The position numbers were made by a program, and so were the translations under genes. Below, one piece after another: positions 28,193 to 36,224 of a stretch of DNA of 64,000 nt. The notes below the pieces were generated by a model. That model saw only the letters and a list, made by a program, of their open reading frames with translations, was not told the DNA's origin and made no database searches. How positions within the stretch are numbered: position 1 is the first letter of the stretch; each line of letters opens with the position of its first letter. Origin of the DNA: Candidatus Accumulibacter cognatus (GTDB lineage Bacteria > Pseudomonadota > Gammaproteobacteria > Burkholderiales > Rhodocyclaceae). The stretch covers positions 2,723,553 to 2,787,552 of the forward strand of contig CP058708.1 of NCBI GenBank assembly GCA_013414765.1. Reading direction: 5' to 3'.

Positions 28193-28269
28193 GGTGATGT
28201 AGCTCAGTCGGTTAGAGCGATGGATTCATAACCCATAGGTCGGTGGTTCAATTCCACCCATCACCACCA
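28193..28269 (+). tRNA. tRNA-Met (CAT), elongator type
   Basis: A 77-nt cloverleaf with acceptor GGTGATG/CATCACC, loop TTCATAA and encoded CCA. The last anticodon-stem pair is A-C (ATGGA against CCCAT). The paired 1-72 G-C end shows it is not the initiator. Its 3' half is the attachment site of the adjacent integrative element. Confidence 0.95.
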
Positions 28270-28271
28270 AA
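28222..28271 (+). repeat. attL, 50-bp direct repeat within tRNA-Met
   Basis: Runs from the anticodon stem (GGATTCATAACCC) to two bases past the CCA end. The identical 50 bp recur at 36175-36224, bracketing an integrase gene. Confidence 0.95.
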
Positions 28272-28954: not shown

Positions 28955-29218
28955 TCATTGCGGTACCTGCTCGGGAAGCAGAATCACGCGGCACGGACGG
29001 TGGCCAGTGCCGGCCAGTGCCTCGGCCTTTGATCGTTCCATAAAGGCGTCTTCGGTTTCGTGGGCGCCTCGTTCCAGAATCCTGTCACCGATGACCGCGC
29101 GGACAATCTCATCGCCGACTGTCCGGATGATGCGGCGGAAAATGATGTCGACGTGATCCGCGTCAGGGTATGCGGCCTGTTCGAGCTTGGCCGTGCGACG
29201 TTCCAGTGCTGTGCTCAT
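28955..29218 (-). CDS. hypothetical protein of the integrative element
   Basis: An 87-residue protein, MSTALERRTAKLEQAAYPD..., with a short N-terminal helix, an acidic middle and a basic end. I do not recognise a family. Its ATG at 29218 overlaps the stop of the DUF5681 gene by 4 bp (ATGA), strongly suggesting it is translated. Small partners of DUF5681 proteins often resemble phage packaging accessory proteins, but nothing in the sequence proves that here. Confidence 0.7.
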   Translation of the reverse strand: MSTALERRTAKLEQAAYPDADHVDIIFRRIIRTVGDEIVRAVIGDRILERGAHETEDAFMERSKAEALAGTGHRPCRVILLPEQVPQ

Positions 29219-29616
29219 TTCTTTGTCTCCAGTGCGGTGATTCGTTGTTCAAGCTGCAGTGTCTCAACTGCCTTTCTGCGCGCTTCCACGATACTGGACA
29301 GCGCCGTACCCTCTCCCAGCAGGAGGTCGCCGGCAGCCACCGCTTGTAGGATGGCTTGCTGCGCCTCGGCGATGCCGCCAGCCGTATCGGTACCCGGCAG
29401 CGCCAAGCTGATCGGGCGCTCCTTCACTGGCGGCAGCAATCGTTCGAGCACCAACCGTGCAGCCGACAAGTCGCCTTCCTTGGCCAGGCCGACGACCGCA
29501 TCCGTGATTTCCTTTGCGCCTCGCTCCATGATGGACTGCACCATGACCGTCGCCTTGTTCCGTACTCCGGCGGGCTTCCCGGTCGGGTTGCCGCTTTGAC
29601 CTTTTTTCCAAACCAT
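29215..29616 (-). CDS. DUF5681 protein, terminase-small-subunit-like
   Basis: A 133-residue protein with the DUF5681 start KKGQSGNPTGKPAGVRNKA, the GQSGNPxGRP-type motif seen at the N terminus of many phage terminase small subunits and mobile-element proteins, followed by a helical region and a C-terminal coiled coil (LEQRITALE). It may bind DNA for packaging or regulation. The next gene overlaps by 4 bp. About 190 bp separate it from the iteron region upstream. Confidence 0.8.
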   Translation of the reverse strand: MVWKKGQSGNPTGKPAGVRNKATVMVQSIMERGAKEITDAVVGLAKEGDLSAARLVLERLLPPVKERPISLALPGTDTAGGIAEAQQAILQAVAAGDLLLGEGTALSSIVEARRKAVETLQLEQRITALETKK

Positions 29617-29805
29617 CCTGAACCGCTCCTGCTAATTCAATTGTTGATGCCCGGCAAGTGCACAGAATCGCGCCAGGCTGACCGATCTACCCTTGACCGA
29701 TACCTTTTCTTACCAGAGAAGGACGGTTTTTTTCCGCCCTCGACTCCCGCGAAGGGGAAGAGATTTCCGGTACTGCGCCGGAATCTCTATCCCCCTTTAG
29801 GGGGG

Positions 29806-30002
29806 GCGCAGTTGCGCAGTTCTAAAAACTCTTTTGAATCAAATGATTGCAAACTGCGCAGGGCTTTGGCGCAGTTCGATCTTGGCGCAGTTCCAATGTC
29901 ATAAAAACGGGCTGCAAACCCTTGCCATTGCTGGATTCTTCTTTTGGCGCGAACTGCGCAGACGCCTGAACTGCGCGGCGCAGTTTGAAAACCTGCGCAG
30001 TT
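29806..30002. other. iteron cluster, probable replication origin
   Basis: Nine exact copies of GCGCAGTT in either orientation: plus strand at 29806, 29814, 29869, 29885, 29978 and 29995; minus strand at 29852, 29952 and 29969 (leftmost bases). Several starts are 16-17 bp apart. An AT-rich patch (TTCTAAAAACTCTTTTGAAT) sits between the second and third copies. The cluster ends 21 bp from the stop of the primase-helicase gene. P4-like elements and iteron plasmids place origins of this type beside the initiator gene. Confidence 0.8.
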
Positions 30003-30022: not shown

Positions 30023-32194
30023 TCATGCCGCCACCTCTTCGGCATATTCCGCTTCTGTCGGTACGCTTTCGGCATCCGTTTCTGGAACGGGTTTCGGTAC
30101 GGCGGCGGTTGCGTCGGGCGGGCACAGGCGGCTGCCACCTCTGTAGCTCAATCGTCTGATACTGCCACCGGCCACCAGCTTGCCGGTAATATCGTCGAAC
30201 CATGCGCGCGTCTTTTCGTGGAACGCCTCGGGCAATTCGGTTCGGCGAGCGTGCAGTCCGTTATCCGCTTTGCCACTGGCGGCGAAAGATTGCCCCTCCT
30301 GCCACTTCTCCCGGATGGCCTTCAGCAGATCGGCGCGCAGCGTGTCGCTGTCGTCGGTGCCAGAAAGCGCGTTGTATTGCTGCGTCCGGTCCTGCAGGAT
30401 GCCGCGCACGTCGCGCACGAACACGGTGCGGTCGCGGCGGGCGTCGCCGTACCTCTTCGCCACAATGCCGAATGCAACTTTGCCCTCTTCGTACTGCTCG
30501 CCAAAGACATCGCAGACTTCCCGGCCGCCGTCAGCAGGGGGCCACATCACATAGGCGGCGCGCGCGGTGCCGGCAATCGCCCCACTCCCGCGAATCGCCT
30601 CCATCGCATCAAGAGATGTCCGGATTTCCTTGGTCGAACCCTTGGCGACATGATGCACCAACAGCACACAGGCGCCTGTCGCCGATGCCAGGGCAGTTGC
30701 CTCGTTCATCAGAGGTTGAGTCGCATCGACCGTGTTCGTGTCGCCAGTCGTCAGCGCTTGCATCGTGTCCAGAATAATCAGTTTCACGTCGGGCAGCTCG
30801 CGGATCTCCGTAACGAGGTCGCGCCATGCCTCGGTAGGCCGGTACTCCTTCGTCAGCCGGTCGGCTTCGATGATGCCGAAGTGCCCCACGTCAGGCAGAC
30901 TCAGCACATGCAGGCGCTCGGGCATACGGCCATTGCACAGGCTCCAGAGTCGGCGGTGAATCTCGGGCAAGTCATCCTCGGCACTGACATAGACGGCCCG
31001 GCCATGCGCGGCCACTTCGGCACCAAAGGCATAATCAGGTTCTGCCCCAGGCCAGCCCGCCACCTTCGCGGTCAGGTCGAGAGACAGAAAGCTCTTCCCG
31101 ACATTCGGCGGCGATGCGACGAGACAGCACACGCCAAGCGGAAAGATTCGGCGAACCAGCCAATTGACCGGCGGCGGCTCGCCGATGAATAGGCGGTCGG
31201 CCGTGCGCTGTGCCAGGCCGAACCGGGTCGGCGGCGCTTTGCAGCGCTCCAGCAGCCGGCGCACGGCGTCGAGACCGTGCGCCTTTTGAAAATCGTTCAG
31301 GTCGAAGTTACTCGGGCTGCCTTCGGGCATTTCCACCCAGGCGCCGCGCACGTTCTTGGCGATTGCAGAGCACTGGTTTTCCTTGCCGGCGTCGGGCACC
31401 AGCACCAGCCGGATCGCTGGATAGCGCTCGCGTAGGGCTCTGGCGACACCTGCCATTCGGCCAACCCCAAAGGCCACCACGGCGGGCTGGCGCGTTGCCT
31501 GGTGCGCGGACCATGCTTGGCCGATGCCCTCTGTGATGTGGACCGCCTCATCGGATTTGATCGGCCCACCGACAATCAGGCATGCATCAGGCCACCGTGA
31601 TACTCGCACGCCGGGCAAGAGCATCTTGTCCGATTTGCCCGGCAATATGTTGGCCTTGAGAATGACGAACTGAAGATCCACGAGGTTACCTGCCAGCGTG
31701 CGGAGCGGTAGCACCAGAGCGCCCTCGCAGGCCATGCCATCAATCTTGAGCGGACCGCGATAGATGCGCAGTCCATCGGGCAGGCCCAGCTTGCGGTCGA
31801 CGTACTCTTGGGCGCCGGTCGCCGGCTCGCAGTCGGCTTCCCACAAGGCGCTCGGGTCATGCAATGGGGATTTGCTTGCCTCGGGCTGCTTCGGTCCTTC
31901 CTGGTGCGACTGCATGCGCTTGGCGGGCGCTTCGGCGGCGTCAGTCCAGCCAGCGGCGCGGGCGGCATGGAACAGCGATGCATCGGTGACGGCGCCGGGC
32001 TTGATGCTCTGCCAGACCGATCGGCAATCAGCCTCGTTCCTGTAGTTGCCGCCGGCCGCAGACCATTCGTGCCAGGCGTCGAAGTCCAGACCGGCAGCTT
32101 TCGCGGCCATCGCGGTTCGTACCCAGGTATCGCGGTCGGTGCCGGCGTCGAGGGTCCATAGCGCTGACCGGGCGCGATCGATCGAGGTCATCAT
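30023..32194 (-). CDS. primase-helicase / RepA-type replication protein
   Basis: A 723-residue replication protein. Residues about 10-75 are a PriCT_2-like primase C-terminal domain (DAWHEWSAAGGNYRNEADCR). A Toprim-like middle follows (VVAFGVGRMAGVARALRERY, then LVLVPDAGKEN). Residues about 350-560 are a RepA/AAA_25 helicase with Walker A ASPPNVGKSFLSLDL, Walker B LIILDTMQAL and VLLVHHVAKGS. The C terminus is acidic. It should prime and unwind DNA at the nearby iteron cluster. Its start overlaps the preceding small gene by 4 bp. Confidence 0.9.
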   Translation of the reverse strand: MMTSIDRARSALWTLDAGTDRDTWVRTAMAAKAAGLDFDAWHEWSAAGGNYRNEADCRSVWQSIKPGAVTDASLFHAARAAGWTDAAEAPAKRMQSHQEGPKQPEASKSPLHDPSALWEADCEPATGAQEYVDRKLGLPDGLRIYRGPLKIDGMACEGALVLPLRTLAGNLVDLQFVILKANILPGKSDKMLLPGVRVSRWPDACLIVGGPIKSDEAVHITEGIGQAWSAHQATRQPAVVAFGVGRMAGVARALRERYPAIRLVLVPDAGKENQCSAIAKNVRGAWVEMPEGSPSNFDLNDFQKAHGLDAVRRLLERCKAPPTRFGLAQRTADRLFIGEPPPVNWLVRRIFPLGVCCLVASPPNVGKSFLSLDLTAKVAGWPGAEPDYAFGAEVAAHGRAVYVSAEDDLPEIHRRLWSLCNGRMPERLHVLSLPDVGHFGIIEADRLTKEYRPTEAWRDLVTEIRELPDVKLIILDTMQALTTGDTNTVDATQPLMNEATALASATGACVLLVHHVAKGSTKEIRTSLDAMEAIRGSGAIAGTARAAYVMWPPADGGREVCDVFGEQYEEGKVAFGIVAKRYGDARRDRTVFVRDVRGILQDRTQQYNALSGTDDSDTLRADLLKAIREKWQEGQSFAASGKADNGLHARRTELPEAFHEKTRAWFDDITGKLVAGGSIRRLSYRGGSRLCPPDATAAVPKPVPETDAESVPTEAEYAEEVAA

Positions 32195-32331: not shown

Positions 32332-32687
32332 AGCGGCCACCTCGCGCAAATTAACGCCAGGCACGTCGCGGCCAGGGCGACCAAACCGATCAGCGTTGGG
32401 TCCGTGTCCCCTTTCTGGCGCGGGAACATCTTGAACAGCTTTTGCCGGACTCGCGTACCAGCAACGTGCTGCTCGTCGGTCGTCTGCCAGAACGGGCGGA
32501 CGCGCGGCATGTCATCCTGGACGATGGCGATTGCAGCCCAGAACAGCGGCCTATCGGATTCGGGATAGTCGGTCGCTCCGACGATTTCGCCGGCCAGGAT
32601 GCGGGCCTTGATCGATTCAACCGTGATAGGATCTGCCTTGTCGCGGGCGCTCGTCTCTGCGGTTTGGGGGCGGGCGTGTTTTCTCAT
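32328..32687 (-). CDS. hypothetical membrane-anchored protein of the replication operon
   Basis: A 119-residue protein from the ATG at 32687 (MRKHARPQTAETSARDKADP), overlapping the preceding gene by 4 bp. The central part (ARILAGEIVGATDYPESDRP) is soluble, and the C terminus has one membrane helix (LIGLVALAATCLALICARW). A longer open frame upstream is a shadow of the helix-turn-helix gene. Family unknown. A membrane anchor inside a replication operon is unusual and might tether the replication complex. Confidence 0.7.
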   Translation of the reverse strand: MRKHARPQTAETSARDKADPITVESIKARILAGEIVGATDYPESDRPLFWAAIAIVQDDMPRVRPFWQTTDEQHVAGTRVRQKLFKMFPRQKGDTDPTLIGLVALAATCLALICARWPL

Positions 32688-33088
32688 TTTGCGATCTCGC
32701 CGGAAGTCAGGCGCTTTTCGGCCTTGGCGCGAAGATGTGCAGGCACCTTCGATGCGTCGGCGGCCTTGCGCTCGAAGTGCGCGGCGATCTTCGCGGCGTC
32801 GGCTTTCACAGTCTGGCCAGCGATCAGCGCGTCGACTTCGTTGGAATCCCATAGCAAGCGCCTTGACGGCAATTTCGTCGGAGTAATTCCGTGAAAATGT
32901 CCGTCGCGGCAATACGCGGCGCGCCATGTCTGCGGACGATTCCGCATTCTCTCAGCGGCTTCTTCGGTCGTGATTTTGAGGGGGGTTGTTGGAGCAATGG
33001 GTCTTGCTGCGGCCAAGGCGTCAAGTACAGTGGCGCCAGGCCGGGGTGCAGTCGGGCTAATGCTCGCTGCGATATGATTTCTTTGCAT
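32684..33088 (-). CDS. DNA-binding protein with MerR/AlpA-like helix-turn-helix
   Basis: A 134-residue protein. The central stretch KITTEEAAERMRNRPQTWR followed by RRLLWDSNEVDALIAGQ has the layout of AlpA/excisionase-type winged helix domains (helix-turn-helix, wing, then an Asp-Val-x-x-hydrophobic end). The C terminus is charged and helical. First gene of the four-gene replication operon; it probably regulates the operon or aids excision. It lacks the exact AlpA signature, so the role is inferred. Confidence 0.7.
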   Translation of the reverse strand: MQRNHIAASISPTAPRPGATVLDALAAARPIAPTTPLKITTEEAAERMRNRPQTWRAAYCRDGHFHGITPTKLPSRRLLWDSNEVDALIAGQTVKADAAKIAAHFERKAADASKVPAHLRAKAEKRLTSGEIAK

Positions 33089-33191: not shown

Positions 33192-33878
33192 TCATGGTTG
33201 CCTTGTCGCTTCCGCCAGGGTATCGCGCCATGTCGATTCCGCCAACACAAGACCAACGTCATCTGCAATGATCTTGAGTATTTTCACGGCGCAAGACACG
33301 TACTCCGAAGTATCTTCAATGCCATAATTTTTGTCTTGGGTAATGTCCACCATCCGGGTATAGGTGCTCGCGGTCGCCGAGGGCTTGATTTCGTAATCCC
33401 GGAGAACGATGGCGATTCTGCCGGCAAAGTCCAGAGCGACGTAATGCTTCCATTCCACAGGCTTCCGTGCCTGATCCTTTTTCAGGTCGATGTTGCACCG
33501 CGCAGATTCTGCGCACTTAATCATCAGCGTAATCGAATCAGCACATCCTCTCGGGTCAGCATCCTCTCCAAGTAATCTGTCAAAATCACCCGATAGGTTT
33601 TGCAATTTCGTGCGCGTGCTACGAAGGTCTTTCAGCAATGCGTCGCACTCGGCGCGGGCCTCTTCCTTCGTGAGGAATTGCTTAGTTACTCCCAGTTCGG
33701 CGGCGAGCCCATAACCCCACCTCAGCAAGGCGTCCACAAACTCATCGGCCGCATCCCCGAATGTCGGGCATGTTTCGGCTTGGTGCGGATAAAGCTCGCG
33801 CAGTTTTGCTCTCGTGTCGTCGGAAAAATCGTGTGTCGTTGGATAATGGTATCCGTTGAATTTTGCCTTGGGCCTCAT
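33192..33878 (-). CDS. unknown 228-residue protein, possible cargo
   Basis: A soluble protein beginning MRPKAKFNGYHYPTTHDFSD with a helical N-terminal half (FVDALLRWGYGLAAELGVTK) and a C-terminal half rich in Ile/Asp. No family recognised and no catalytic motif seen. It stands alone between the replication operon and the toxin-antitoxin pair, the place where small integrative elements often carry anti-phage or anti-helper genes. That is a suggestion from position only. Confidence 0.75.
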   Translation of the reverse strand: MRPKAKFNGYHYPTTHDFSDDTRAKLRELYPHQAETCPTFGDAADEFVDALLRWGYGLAAELGVTKQFLTKEEARAECDALLKDLRSTRTKLQNLSGDFDRLLGEDADPRGCADSITLMIKCAESARCNIDLKKDQARKPVEWKHYVALDFAGRIAIVLRDYEIKPSATASTYTRMVDITQDKNYGIEDTSEYVSCAVKILKIIADDVGLVLAESTWRDTLAEATRQP

Positions 33879-33988
33879 GCGGGCATTCCTTCAAATGCTC
33901 CTTCGTTTGGGATGCCGCGCCAGCCGGGTGAAGGTGCCCGGTTTTCTCCCTCGGTGATCAGCCTCGGGATAGGCGCGGCAAAACTCGG

Positions 33989-34306
33989 TCAGGCCGGATG
34001 TTCTTCTCTTCGAGCTACGGCCAAGCGCAGACCGGCGGCAGACAGGACCGCCAGCAAGGTTTCGAGTGTCGGGTTGCCTTTGGGGGAAAGTGCACGGGAA
34101 AGGCTTTCGCGGCGCATGCCAGCGCGTGCAGCTACCTCTTGCATTCCTTGGGCATGGGCGACGTGGCGCAAGGCGCGCAACAGGGCTTGCCTGCCGCCGG
34201 GTTCCTCTGCTTCCTCCAGTGCTGCGGCGAGGTATTCATCAGCAAACGCCGGGTCTTCGCGCAGCAGTTCCACCATTGCATCATCGTGGGGGCGGGCGGC
34301 TTTCAT
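33989..34306 (-). CDS. HigA-type antitoxin, XRE-like DNA-binding
   Basis: A 105-residue addiction-module antidote from the ATG at 34306 (MKAARPHDDAMVELLREDPA). The helix-turn-helix is MQEVAARAGMRRESLSRALS followed by GNPTLETLLAVLSAAGLRL, as in HigA2/addiction-module antidotes paired with RelE-like toxins. The ATG overlaps the toxin stop by 4 bp. It should neutralise the toxin and repress the operon at the palindrome upstream. Confidence 0.88.
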   Translation of the reverse strand: MKAARPHDDAMVELLREDPAFADEYLAAALEEAEEPGGRQALLRALRHVAHAQGMQEVAARAGMRRESLSRALSPKGNPTLETLLAVLSAAGLRLAVARREEHPA

Positions 34307-34629
34307 GGTGCATTCCTCCTTTGCCAGTCCTGCCAATAGCGGACGGCAGTTTCAATATCGGCTTGCTGGCGGCGCTTGTCGCCACCGATCAGGAGCAACA
34401 GCACTCGCCGGCCGGCTTGGGCGTAATACACGCGGTAGCCGGGACCGTGGTCTATCCTCAATTCCCATACGCCATCGTTTAAGGGCTTGTGGTCACCAAA
34501 ATTGCCGGCAGCCATTCGTTGCACCCGGACGGCCACCCGTGCGCGGGCATTCCTGTCCGCCAGCTTTGCCAGCCATTCCTGGAACGGGTCACGTCCATCT
34601 GCCGTCTGATAGTCGAAAAGATCGAACAC
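34303..34629 (-). CDS. RelE/HigB-type toxin (addiction module killer)
   Basis: A 108-residue toxin: FQEWLAKLADRNARARVAVR, then GVWELRIDHGPGYRVYYAQA and LLLLIGGDKRRQQADIETA, the pattern of the putative addiction-module killer family related to RelE mRNA interferases. Toxin precedes antitoxin, as in HigBA. The ATG is 6 bp from a perfect 16-bp palindrome, so expression is probably autoregulated. The pair would stabilise the integrative element. Confidence 0.9.
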   Translation of the reverse strand: MFDLFDYQTADGRDPFQEWLAKLADRNARARVAVRVQRMAAGNFGDHKPLNDGVWELRIDHGPGYRVYYAQAGRRVLLLLIGGDKRRQQADIETAVRYWQDWQRRNAP

Positions 34630-34675: not shown

Positions 34676-36001
34676 TCAAACCACGACACGTAAGCGCGCC
34701 TCGGCTTCGGCGGGCTGCTCGATACCTGCCTCGTTGAGAATCCATGCCTCAATCTTGGTGTGCCACATGCGCAGCAGATCGAGCGGACGCACGCGGTAGT
34801 GCTTCTCGGCGGTTGCGCTCGGCTTGTGGCCCATGATCTGCGCGCTGACTCCAGTAGGACATTCAACCCATTCCGCCAAGGTGCCGAAGGAACGGCGCAG
34901 ACCGTGGATAGACAGCGCCGGAAGTCCGGCAGCAACAAGGCATTTGTTGTGCATGATGCGCGGCTCCTGAAGCCTTCCAGACGCTGCTGTGGGGCTGCTG
35001 AATACCCACTCGTTGCGACGTGGAAGGGCGGCGAGCAACGACGCGACGTAGGGCGTCAGCGGAATCGTGCGCTCGCCGTCGACCTTGTCCTTGATGGTCA
35101 TCGACTTCCACTGAAAGTCCACATCTTCCCACTGCAGGCCGGCCACCTCTTCACGGCGCGCACCAATCAGCAGCGCAGTCTGGAGATAGGCGGCGATGAC
35201 GGGATTCTGAATCTGACGCACGGACGCGAACCACGCCGGCAACTGCTCGCGTTGCAGGCAATCGTCCTTGGCGATCTTCTTCGGCAATTCGTCGCGGGCC
35301 ATGCGGGTGATGCAGGCGTCGGCGTGCGCTTGGTTGCGATACTCGGGGCGATCGGCGCACCAGTTGAGGAAAGCGCGCAGCAGGCCGAAGGCTAGGCGGG
35401 TATGGGTCGGGCGCTTGGCGGATTCATCTTGCAGCCAAACGCGCACGCGGTCAGCGTCGATCTGTTCCAGAGGAAGGGCCAGTAGCGGGCGCAGGATGCC
35501 CGGCAGCGTCTTGTCACTCTCGCCGGGTCGGCGCCCTTGGGTGCGGTGCTCGCCCCCTTCTTTGCTCACGGTCGCATGGTCGGCAAGATGGCTTTGACTC
35601 CACTTGGGGGCGCGGGCCTCGATGTACTTCTGCCAGGCTTCGAGTGCCGGCGTAGCGATACGCTCTGCCTCGATGCGCTTGGCTTCGGCTTCGGCGCGCT
35701 TGGCCTCGGCGGCGGCGATGCGGTCGGCTTTCTCTTGGCGCGGGTCGATGCCCTGGTCGATCATGGTTTGCAGCCGGCGCGCTTCGTCGCGGGCGGCGGC
35801 GAGTGTCCATGCTCGAACGTCGCCGATGGTCACGCGGACAGTTTGCCGGTTCAGCTTGGCCTCGAAGATAAACGCCTTCGCGCCAGCGGTCACACGGACA
35901 GCCAGGCGGGGCGCGTCGGTGTCCCAGAGGAATGATTGCGCCACCCCAGCGGGCAGTGTGAGTCGGCGGATTCGGTCGGGGGTCAGGCGTTCGCGGTTCA
36001 T
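34676..36001 (-). CDS. int: P4-type tyrosine integrase
   Basis: A 441-residue integrase from the ATG at 36001 (MNRERLTPDRIRRLTLPAGV). The N-terminal arm-binding DUF4102-like domain (AKLNRQTVRVTIGDVRAWTL) is followed by a long Ala/Glu-rich helix and the catalytic domain with the first Arg in LLIGARREEVAGL, HxxR in HGLRRSFG and the Tyr in KHYRVRPLDLLR. It would recombine the 50-bp tRNA-Met repeats. It lies 174 bp from attR with arm-type repeats between. Length is typical. Confidence 0.95.
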   Translation of the reverse strand: MNRERLTPDRIRRLTLPAGVAQSFLWDTDAPRLAVRVTAGAKAFIFEAKLNRQTVRVTIGDVRAWTLAAARDEARRLQTMIDQGIDPRQEKADRIAAAEAKRAEAEAKRIEAERIATPALEAWQKYIEARAPKWSQSHLADHATVSKEGGEHRTQGRRPGESDKTLPGILRPLLALPLEQIDADRVRVWLQDESAKRPTHTRLAFGLLRAFLNWCADRPEYRNQAHADACITRMARDELPKKIAKDDCLQREQLPAWFASVRQIQNPVIAAYLQTALLIGARREEVAGLQWEDVDFQWKSMTIKDKVDGERTIPLTPYVASLLAALPRRNEWVFSSPTAASGRLQEPRIMHNKCLVAAGLPALSIHGLRRSFGTLAEWVECPTGVSAQIMGHKPSATAEKHYRVRPLDLLRMWHTKIEAWILNEAGIEQPAEAEARLRVVV

Positions 36002-36036
36002 GGTGTCGGCTCCGGTTTTGGCTACATGGGTGATTC

Positions 36037-36057
36037 CGTGTAGCCACCATGTAGCCA
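36037..36057 (+). promoter_or_regulatory. arm-type integrase site candidate, right
   Basis: Identical in 21 bp to 28324-28344. An inverted partial copy (TGGCTACATG) lies at 36019-36028, so three related sites flank the two att repeats. It also sits in the integrase promoter region, so it may double as an autoregulatory site. Confidence 0.6.
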
Positions 36058-36174
36058 TTTTACAGCAATCCGGTTCAACGTCAAGCAACGCCTATTTACC
36101 TAATATGCTTGTTTTTCAATGATTTTACTACCTGCCATGCATACCATTCAACGCCGAAAAATGCCTAGAAGTTG

Positions 36175-36224
36175 GGATTCATAACCCATAGGTCGGTGGT
36201 TCAATTCCACCCATCACCACCAAA
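36175..36224 (+). repeat. attR, 50-bp copy of the tRNA-Met 3' part
   Basis: Perfect repeat of 28222-28271. Right of it the sequence AAGCTGGGGCTTTTTTG probably held the original tRNA terminator. Confidence 0.95.

Follow-up and report, generated by a model that had tools for sequence, protein, structure and literature searches.

Introduction

Classical iteron plasmids carry long direct repeats in one orientation, and the alpha protein of P4, which recognises the ori/crr repeats, has an SF3 helicase. Several described systems are closer to the locus studied here. In P4 alpha, primase and helicase are fused in one protein (PMC7145576). In PICIs, the origin is described as directly following rep on its 3' side and as having an AT-rich region flanked by two sets of iterons (PMC6092414). 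For RepA of the PLEs, satellites of Vibrio cholerae, it has been reported that the DNA-binding domain and the origin covary and are exchanged as a module, and that cognate pairs are required for replication (PMC8263062); this RepA is assigned to the RepA_N family and described as having no predicted helicase or primase activity (PMC7145576). The origin of the IncQ plasmid RSF1010 contains iterons and short priming stem-loops, and in the crenarchaeal plasmid pRN1 the origin is located downstream of the gene for a fused replication protein that ends in a winged helix, and a stem-loop is needed (both described in PMC4234260). PICMI satellites of Vibrionaceae are small and carry int, alpA and prim genes (PMC10803314). 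In geminiviruses, closely related members often have different iterons, which interact with the cognate Rep (PMC12548392).

Here we describe an array of short repeats next to a primase-helicase gene within a 64-kb stretch of DNA, which as a whole is called the window, and the corresponding arrays of related elements. Very probably, a small integrated mobile element uses the array as its replication origin, and the C-terminal domain of the replication protein Rep appears to form one specificity module with it. The layout and the covariation of initiator and origin are already known from PICIs and PLEs, and this array with its Rep family is a new instance; in the open-licence literature, no description of such an array or of a code was found for this Rep family.

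Results

A small element integrated in a tRNA-Met gene

The array is part of an element that resides in a tRNA-Met gene and is flanked by exact 50-bp direct repeats. As this repeat, which corresponds to the tRNA-Met end, occurs at 28222 and again at 36175, the length of the element amounts to 7,953 bp (7.95 kb). The first att copy (28222-28271) overlaps the 3' end of the tRNA-Met gene (28193-28269) and the second copy (36175-36224) is identical to it at 50 of 50 positions. The minus strand encodes a tyrosine integrase (34676-36088), a toxin-antitoxin pair consisting of a Gp49-like toxin and an HI1420-type antidote (33989-34629), an AlpA-like regulator with a weak match to PHROG 66 (32684-33088; E 0.0036), Rep (30023-32194) and a DUF5681 protein (29215-29616), which is the next recognised gene past the array. 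An int-alpA RNA (Rfam RF02996) on the same strand (33900-33979) scored 65.1 bits, above the gathering score of 35.8, and is located between the antidote gene (33989-34336) and an uncharacterised frame (33192-33878). No phage structural genes were recognised among the ten and eight proteins searched, which are a part of all frames, and the element looks like a phage satellite or an integrative element of a related kind. Compared by description, it resembles the PICMI satellites as a small element with int, alpA and prim-type genes; a difference is that the word iteron does not occur in the PICMI report (PMC10803314).

Nine exact 8-bp units lie 3' of rep

Between positions 29806 and 30002, nine exact copies of GCGCAGTT are present, six on the plus strand (starting at 29806, 29814, 29869, 29885, 29978 and 29995) and three on the minus strand (29852, 29952 and 29969). 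These GCGCAGTT/AACTGCGC units, the proposed origin iterons, show recurrent start spacings of 16-17 bp (29852-29869-29885, 29952-29969 and 29978-29995), and two further matches have one mismatch, one at 29771-29778 and one at 29991-29998 that overlaps a full copy. The units are grouped as two and seven on the two sides of an AT-rich patch (29822-29851; 27% GC), a candidate melting site for which a similar stretch is found in the relatives. The first-pass annotation had described the copy number, both orientations, the spacing and the AT-rich patch correctly, whereas the distance between the array end and the rep stop (30023), given there as 21 bp, is 20 bp.

This layout resembles that of the PICIs, including SaPIs, since the array begins 20 bp after the rep stop, with an array just 3' of rep in all seven close elements, and since seven and two units flank the AT-rich region. 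In contrast to PICIs, the helicase is of the RepA type (RecA fold), the units of 8 bp occur in both orientations and a unit-bearing hairpin follows. Short units in both orientations also distinguish the array from the repeats of classical iteron plasmids.

In 2,000 dinucleotide shuffles of the 197 bp, the maximum for any 8-mer was four copies and never more, and the window as a whole contains 14 copies of GCGCAGTT where 4.6 are expected. Both results bear out the earlier claim of a density far above chance. When 250-bp windows were slid over the 64 kb, at least five copies of an 8-mer were encountered elsewhere only near position 410, where a tandem array (410-492) comprises about 10 copies of CGGAATCC with a 96% match. 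A genome-wide count, which had been suggested as a check, gave 505 copies of GCGCAGTT in 5.17 Mb, about one per 10 kb, and pair counts indicate that a comparable density is absent elsewhere: of the six places in the genome where two same-strand copies are separated by 30 bp or less, four are in the array, as are three of the four distinct close converging pairs. A GC-skew minimum, also suggested, was not seen at the array, this being a weak test for an integrated 8-kb element.

Rep combines a primase-like part, a RepA-type helicase and a predicted C-terminal winged helix

Rep consists of 723 residues with PriCT_2, a primase-like part, a RepA-type helicase and a C-terminal winged-helix-like domain. 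Pfam searches at E 0.01 gave only AAA_25 and PriCT_2 for Rep, hence no RepA_N assignment, and left the C-terminal domain unrecognised. PHROG searches matched Rep to phage primases and a structure search among viral models returned phage primase-helicases. An AlphaFold model of the last 410 residues, based on 24 sequences, had a mean pLDDT of 80.5 and a pTM of 0.69, compared to a pLDDT of 45.8 for an earlier single-sequence model. Foldseek with this model gave RSF1010 RepA (1g8y) as best match (E 1.5e-13), the matches listed being helicases and RecA-fold ATPases, and phmmer with the full Rep sequence also placed RSF1010 RepA first (E 6.3e-12). The first-pass comparison with the P4 ori/crr sites is therefore valid for the layout, that is, repeats beside the gene for a fused primase-helicase, but not for the helicase, which has the AAA_25/RSF1010 RepA (RecA) fold and not the SF3 type, and membership in the P4 group was rejected. 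By analogy of layout, the PICI origin is a closer precedent than P4.

Past the helicase, the model shows a long helix, a short strand, two helical turns, a helix and two strands in this order. Judged from the secondary structure of this one AlphaFold model, residues of about 615-691 (30122-30352) probably form a winged helix, which we propose as the reader of the units; its loop residues 641-644 (GKAD; 30263-30274) are the best tracker of unit type. Rep thus resembles RSF1010 RepA in its hexameric helicase fold, whereas RSF1010 employs three proteins (RepA, RepB' and RepC) and here the helicase, the primase-like part and the proposed reader are present in one 723-residue frame. Similarly, pRN1 also has its origin just downstream of the gene for a fused Rep with a C-terminal winged helix, which in our case is predicted, but pRN1 has an SF3 helicase, an archaeal-type primase and no iterons.

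Related elements keep the array and change the word

Searches of 61 and 395 genomes, together with genome contigs, led to six further elements in which the Rep match reaches at least residue 707. In all seven elements with a homologous Rep C-terminus, the array is located just 3' of rep and contains seven to nine copies of one word each. The word is AACTGCGC in the window (nine copies), L031 (seven) and L055 (nine), AACTGTGC in L056, L057 and L058 (nine each) and AACTTGGC in L059 (nine), where the counts for L055-L058 include the unit in hairpin 2 (see below). Inside each array the other two words are absent, and within 700 bp the sole foreign word is one AACTTGGC at +268 of L031, outside the array. 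Loss of the repeats in related elements, which would have spoken against an origin, was thus not observed among these seven; the array is kept and the word is changed.

The order and spacing of sites, for which a comparison had been suggested as a check, are largely conserved, with exceptions in L056-L058 (the first site pair is placed differently and two sites are degenerate), in L055 (a deletion of about 20 bp) and in L031 (two sites lost). One genome holds both the window element and L059, and another one holds L055 and L056, with different words in each case. In the comparison of the window with L059, the nine sites correspond one-to-one and all of them show the same two-base change, while 26 of the 125 non-site columns differ; the alignment shifts two sites by one base. 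A different word in much the same places, combined with a changed DNA-binding end of Rep, looks like a co-evolving lock and key. The nearest relative with a named source, L031, comes from a Rhodocyclaceae metagenome-assembled genome. In L058, rep is split (about 124085-128823), with matches to residues 157-492 and 487-713 about 3 kb apart, and the array and the C-terminal frame are intact.

The same comparison bears on the idea that the array is a protein-coding gene, starting at the ATGA that overlaps the rep stop, in which the repeats are codons. Such a frame is present in all seven elements and extends 68-200 codons into or through the array. However, differences between the window and L059 outside the units amount to 14, 9 and 10 at codon positions 1, 2 and 3, as opposed to 59, 54 and 146 in rep. 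Moreover, three of the seven pairs compared have 81-133 columns in which the two frames do not coincide. No coding signal was found in the array, and this reading, which we consider extremely unlikely, was rejected.

Hardly more credible is a DNA-packaging site whose reader would be the protein encoded by the adjacent DUF5681 gene. In the window and in L031, no other recognised gene comes between the array and DUF5681. In L059, DUF5681 is located further downstream, and an extra frame between array and DUF5681 (about 3962-4375 of L024), absent from the window, resembles a VRR-NUC nuclease. However, tblastn at E 1e-3 gave no match to DUF5681 in the fetched loci of L055-L058, all of which retain the array, and the word follows the Rep C-terminus. 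DUF5681 was consequently rejected as a partner of the array.

The word follows the C-terminal domain of Rep

L055 and L056, which have different words, share 98% identity in the helicase (292 of 297 residues), 87% in the C-terminal domain (65 of 75 residues) and 70-77% in the array at the nucleotide level. For L055 and L031, which have the same word, the values are 77% for the helicase and 83% for the C-terminal domain (amino acids) and 79-81% for the array (nucleotides). With an array nearer to L031 and a helicase nearer to L056, L055 looks mosaic, although the complete domain remains marginally nearer to that of L056 (87%) than to that of L031 (83%). L056 and L058 have the same word and C-terminal domains that are 97% identical, and the domains of L056-L058 are near-identical throughout (97-100%).

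We also considered that the units are operators of a transcription regulator, for instance the AlpA-like protein, controlling genes after rep. Indeed, rep and the DUF5681 gene flank the array, which contains inverted pairs as operators do, and the AlpA-like proteins of L055 and L031, two elements with a common word, are 81% identical. However, L056 and L058 share the word with AlpA-like proteins of only 43% and integrases of only 62% identity, and in L071 seven copies of another word follow a Rep relative with no AlpA-like match in the 13-kb locus (E 1e-3). Moreover, a set of nine units that extends over 200 bp and encloses an AT-rich patch would be unusual for an operator. Operator function is an improbable explanation of the array, and neither the AlpA-like protein nor the integrase was retained as the reader of the word, which appears to follow the C-terminal domain of Rep better than either of them.

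Among 412 C-terminal columns, seven separate the AACTGCGC elements from the rest and five of these are within the 76-column domain; because the L058 frame does not extend over the first 165 columns, L058 was excluded for these. Three of the separating columns are in one loop of the domain, and there the AACTGCGC types are one residue longer. The covariation is carried by the seven close elements and perhaps two or three independent switches, and with so few events it is good evidence for a module of domain and array and only suggestive for single residues. Like in the PLEs, then, the DNA-binding domain and the origin would covary, which is proposed here from sequence comparison; the PLE iterons differ in being about 30 bp, as compared to 8 bp here.

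Another element, L060, resembles the window in its integrase (83% identity), its toxin-antitoxin pair (90-97%) and residues 4-378 of Rep (68%), whereas there is no Rep match past residue 545 and the array is of the AACGGGAAA type. Its integrase and toxin-antitoxin pair are closely related to those of the window, but its Rep C-terminus is unrelated and its array differs, so that L060 reads as a module exchange. In phages with GTTCCC- versus ATTTCC-type arrays, 31 separating columns are spread over the protein, nine of them in the domain, and as the domain makes up 76 of 403 columns about six of the 31 would be expected there. These phage columns neither support nor refute a code, and common descent alone could produce the spread.

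One of two hairpins beside the array covaries

Hairpin 1 (CCCCC-TTTA-GGGGG; 29791-29804) adjoins the last two units. Hairpin 2 (29759-29788) has one bulged base, and its loop is formed by most of a tenth unit, the copy with one mismatch at 29771-29778. In five close elements (L057 and L058 excluded), 9 of 17 pairs of hairpin 2 kept their pairing although both bases had changed in one or more of the elements, the pairs having been predicted on the same five sequences. In 15 phage sequences, 10 cells were changed on both sides and 97.0% of the cells pair, a percentage that is biased upward, as in the five-row case, because the alignments were hand-picked from loci with a visible hairpin. None of 500 shuffles of the phage sequences reached the observed pairing, both-side cell count or covariation score. 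Two other measures did not stand out, as 233 of the 500 shuffles reached the observed number of further pair types and 19 reached that of pairs with changes on both sides. A generic hairpin scan returned mostly the array units themselves, and a second scan, run with no shuffled control, gave spurious matches too (for example in L115, L160 and L187). Since these generic scans are weak, hairpin 2 rests on the two covariation tests.

Hairpin 2 forms its outer stem with the G-rich arm that hairpin 1 also uses, and for this reason the two hairpins may be mutually exclusive. In L106, L136-L139, L144-L146 and others, the arrays end in a C/G-rich hairpin followed by another one whose loop contains a unit, and the shared arm of these loci is possibly a two-state switch. 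Compared with the ssi hairpins of RSF1010, two hairpins are present here, one of them covarying, and a role in priming is putative.

Such folds could also point to a function in RNA, in which case the rep transcript would end in a structured RNA or terminator formed by the array, with units pairing in the RNA. The strand folds better than 200 of 200 shuffles (z -4.26, DNA parameters), which together with the covariation of hairpin 2 would be in agreement with this view. However, with six units in one orientation and three in the other not all of them can pair, yet all change together. Furthermore, only one of 133 stem cells of hairpin 2 is a G-U pair, which suits DNA at least as well, and the array had no Rfam match at E 1. 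As an explanation for the array, an RNA is very improbable, and the two hairpins themselves may have a regulatory role.

Arrays after rep in a wider set of loci

A set of 52 rep loci, a part of all matches, was fetched; two without downstream DNA were dropped and the remaining 50 have 350 bp. The densest repeat window was strictly just 3' of rep in 21 of these 50 loci, with 0.8 expected, and elsewhere in the other 29. At least four copies of one 8-mer just after rep occurred in 26 of 50 loci, as compared to 57 of 3,343 other windows, counts that are not independent because the loci are related. For viruses, 53 loci were taken from 83, some of them on the same contig, and 32 of the 53, including many near-duplicates, had at least four copies of an 8-mer in the 320 bp around and after the stop. 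An exact-repeat array was absent in the viral contigs L116, L118, L119, L125 and L132, though their C-terminus is similar. The same layout was encountered in phage RHph_Y3_1 (L106) and, weakly, in plasmid pSU2 (L107), and it was absent from the Wolbachia phage relatives L105 and L108. Scanning viral contigs with a pattern for tandem units gave no matches, and two protein-query scans of viral contigs gave no relative in one case and five weak ones in the other.

At the order level, 9 of 399 genomes matched at E 1e-40, own genome included, and past residue 538 no match was obtained except for the two elements of the own genome. Searches at the class and phylum levels matched 1 of 369 and 2 of 398 genomes, again including the own genome, and provided one new relative, L194. 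In L194, CGTTCCC occurs 15 times in 333 bp from the rep stop, and this relative is too distant to test the code.

Discussion

An iteron origin beside the primase-helicase gene, as initially proposed, is supported by a repeat density that, by the pair counts, is not matched elsewhere in the genome and by the presence of the array in seven of seven close elements. From this we infer a possible course of replication. After excision, the C-terminal winged-helix-like domain of Rep, encoded just upstream, would bind to the 8-bp units, and the RepA-type helicase ring of Rep would be loaded at the AT-rich stretch, once melted, between the two unit groups. The primase part of Rep would then begin DNA synthesis, perhaps at the hairpin that exposes one unit in its loop. 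A change of the domain would be accompanied by a change of the unit, with domain and array acting as a module, and the reason for such switching might be that the joint change keeps an element from reading the origin of another one in the same cell.

More tentatively, and with considerable doubt, we suggest that the Rep loop of residues 641-644 sets the two central bases of the unit and that the unit in the hairpin loop is a second, single-stranded contact for Rep or for priming. If the loop code were true, the Rep sequence would allow origins to be predicted for phages, satellites or plasmids of this widespread Rep family that are yet to be seen.

The array would locate the origin for integrative elements and phages whose replication proteins often bear only primase or AAA labels. 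In addition, the close elements provide a natural series of joint changes in the proposed binding domain and its sites, and two genomes offer such a change even within a single cell. Such a series makes it directly testable, with natural proteins and DNA, how the specificity of an initiator may change without loss of the origin.
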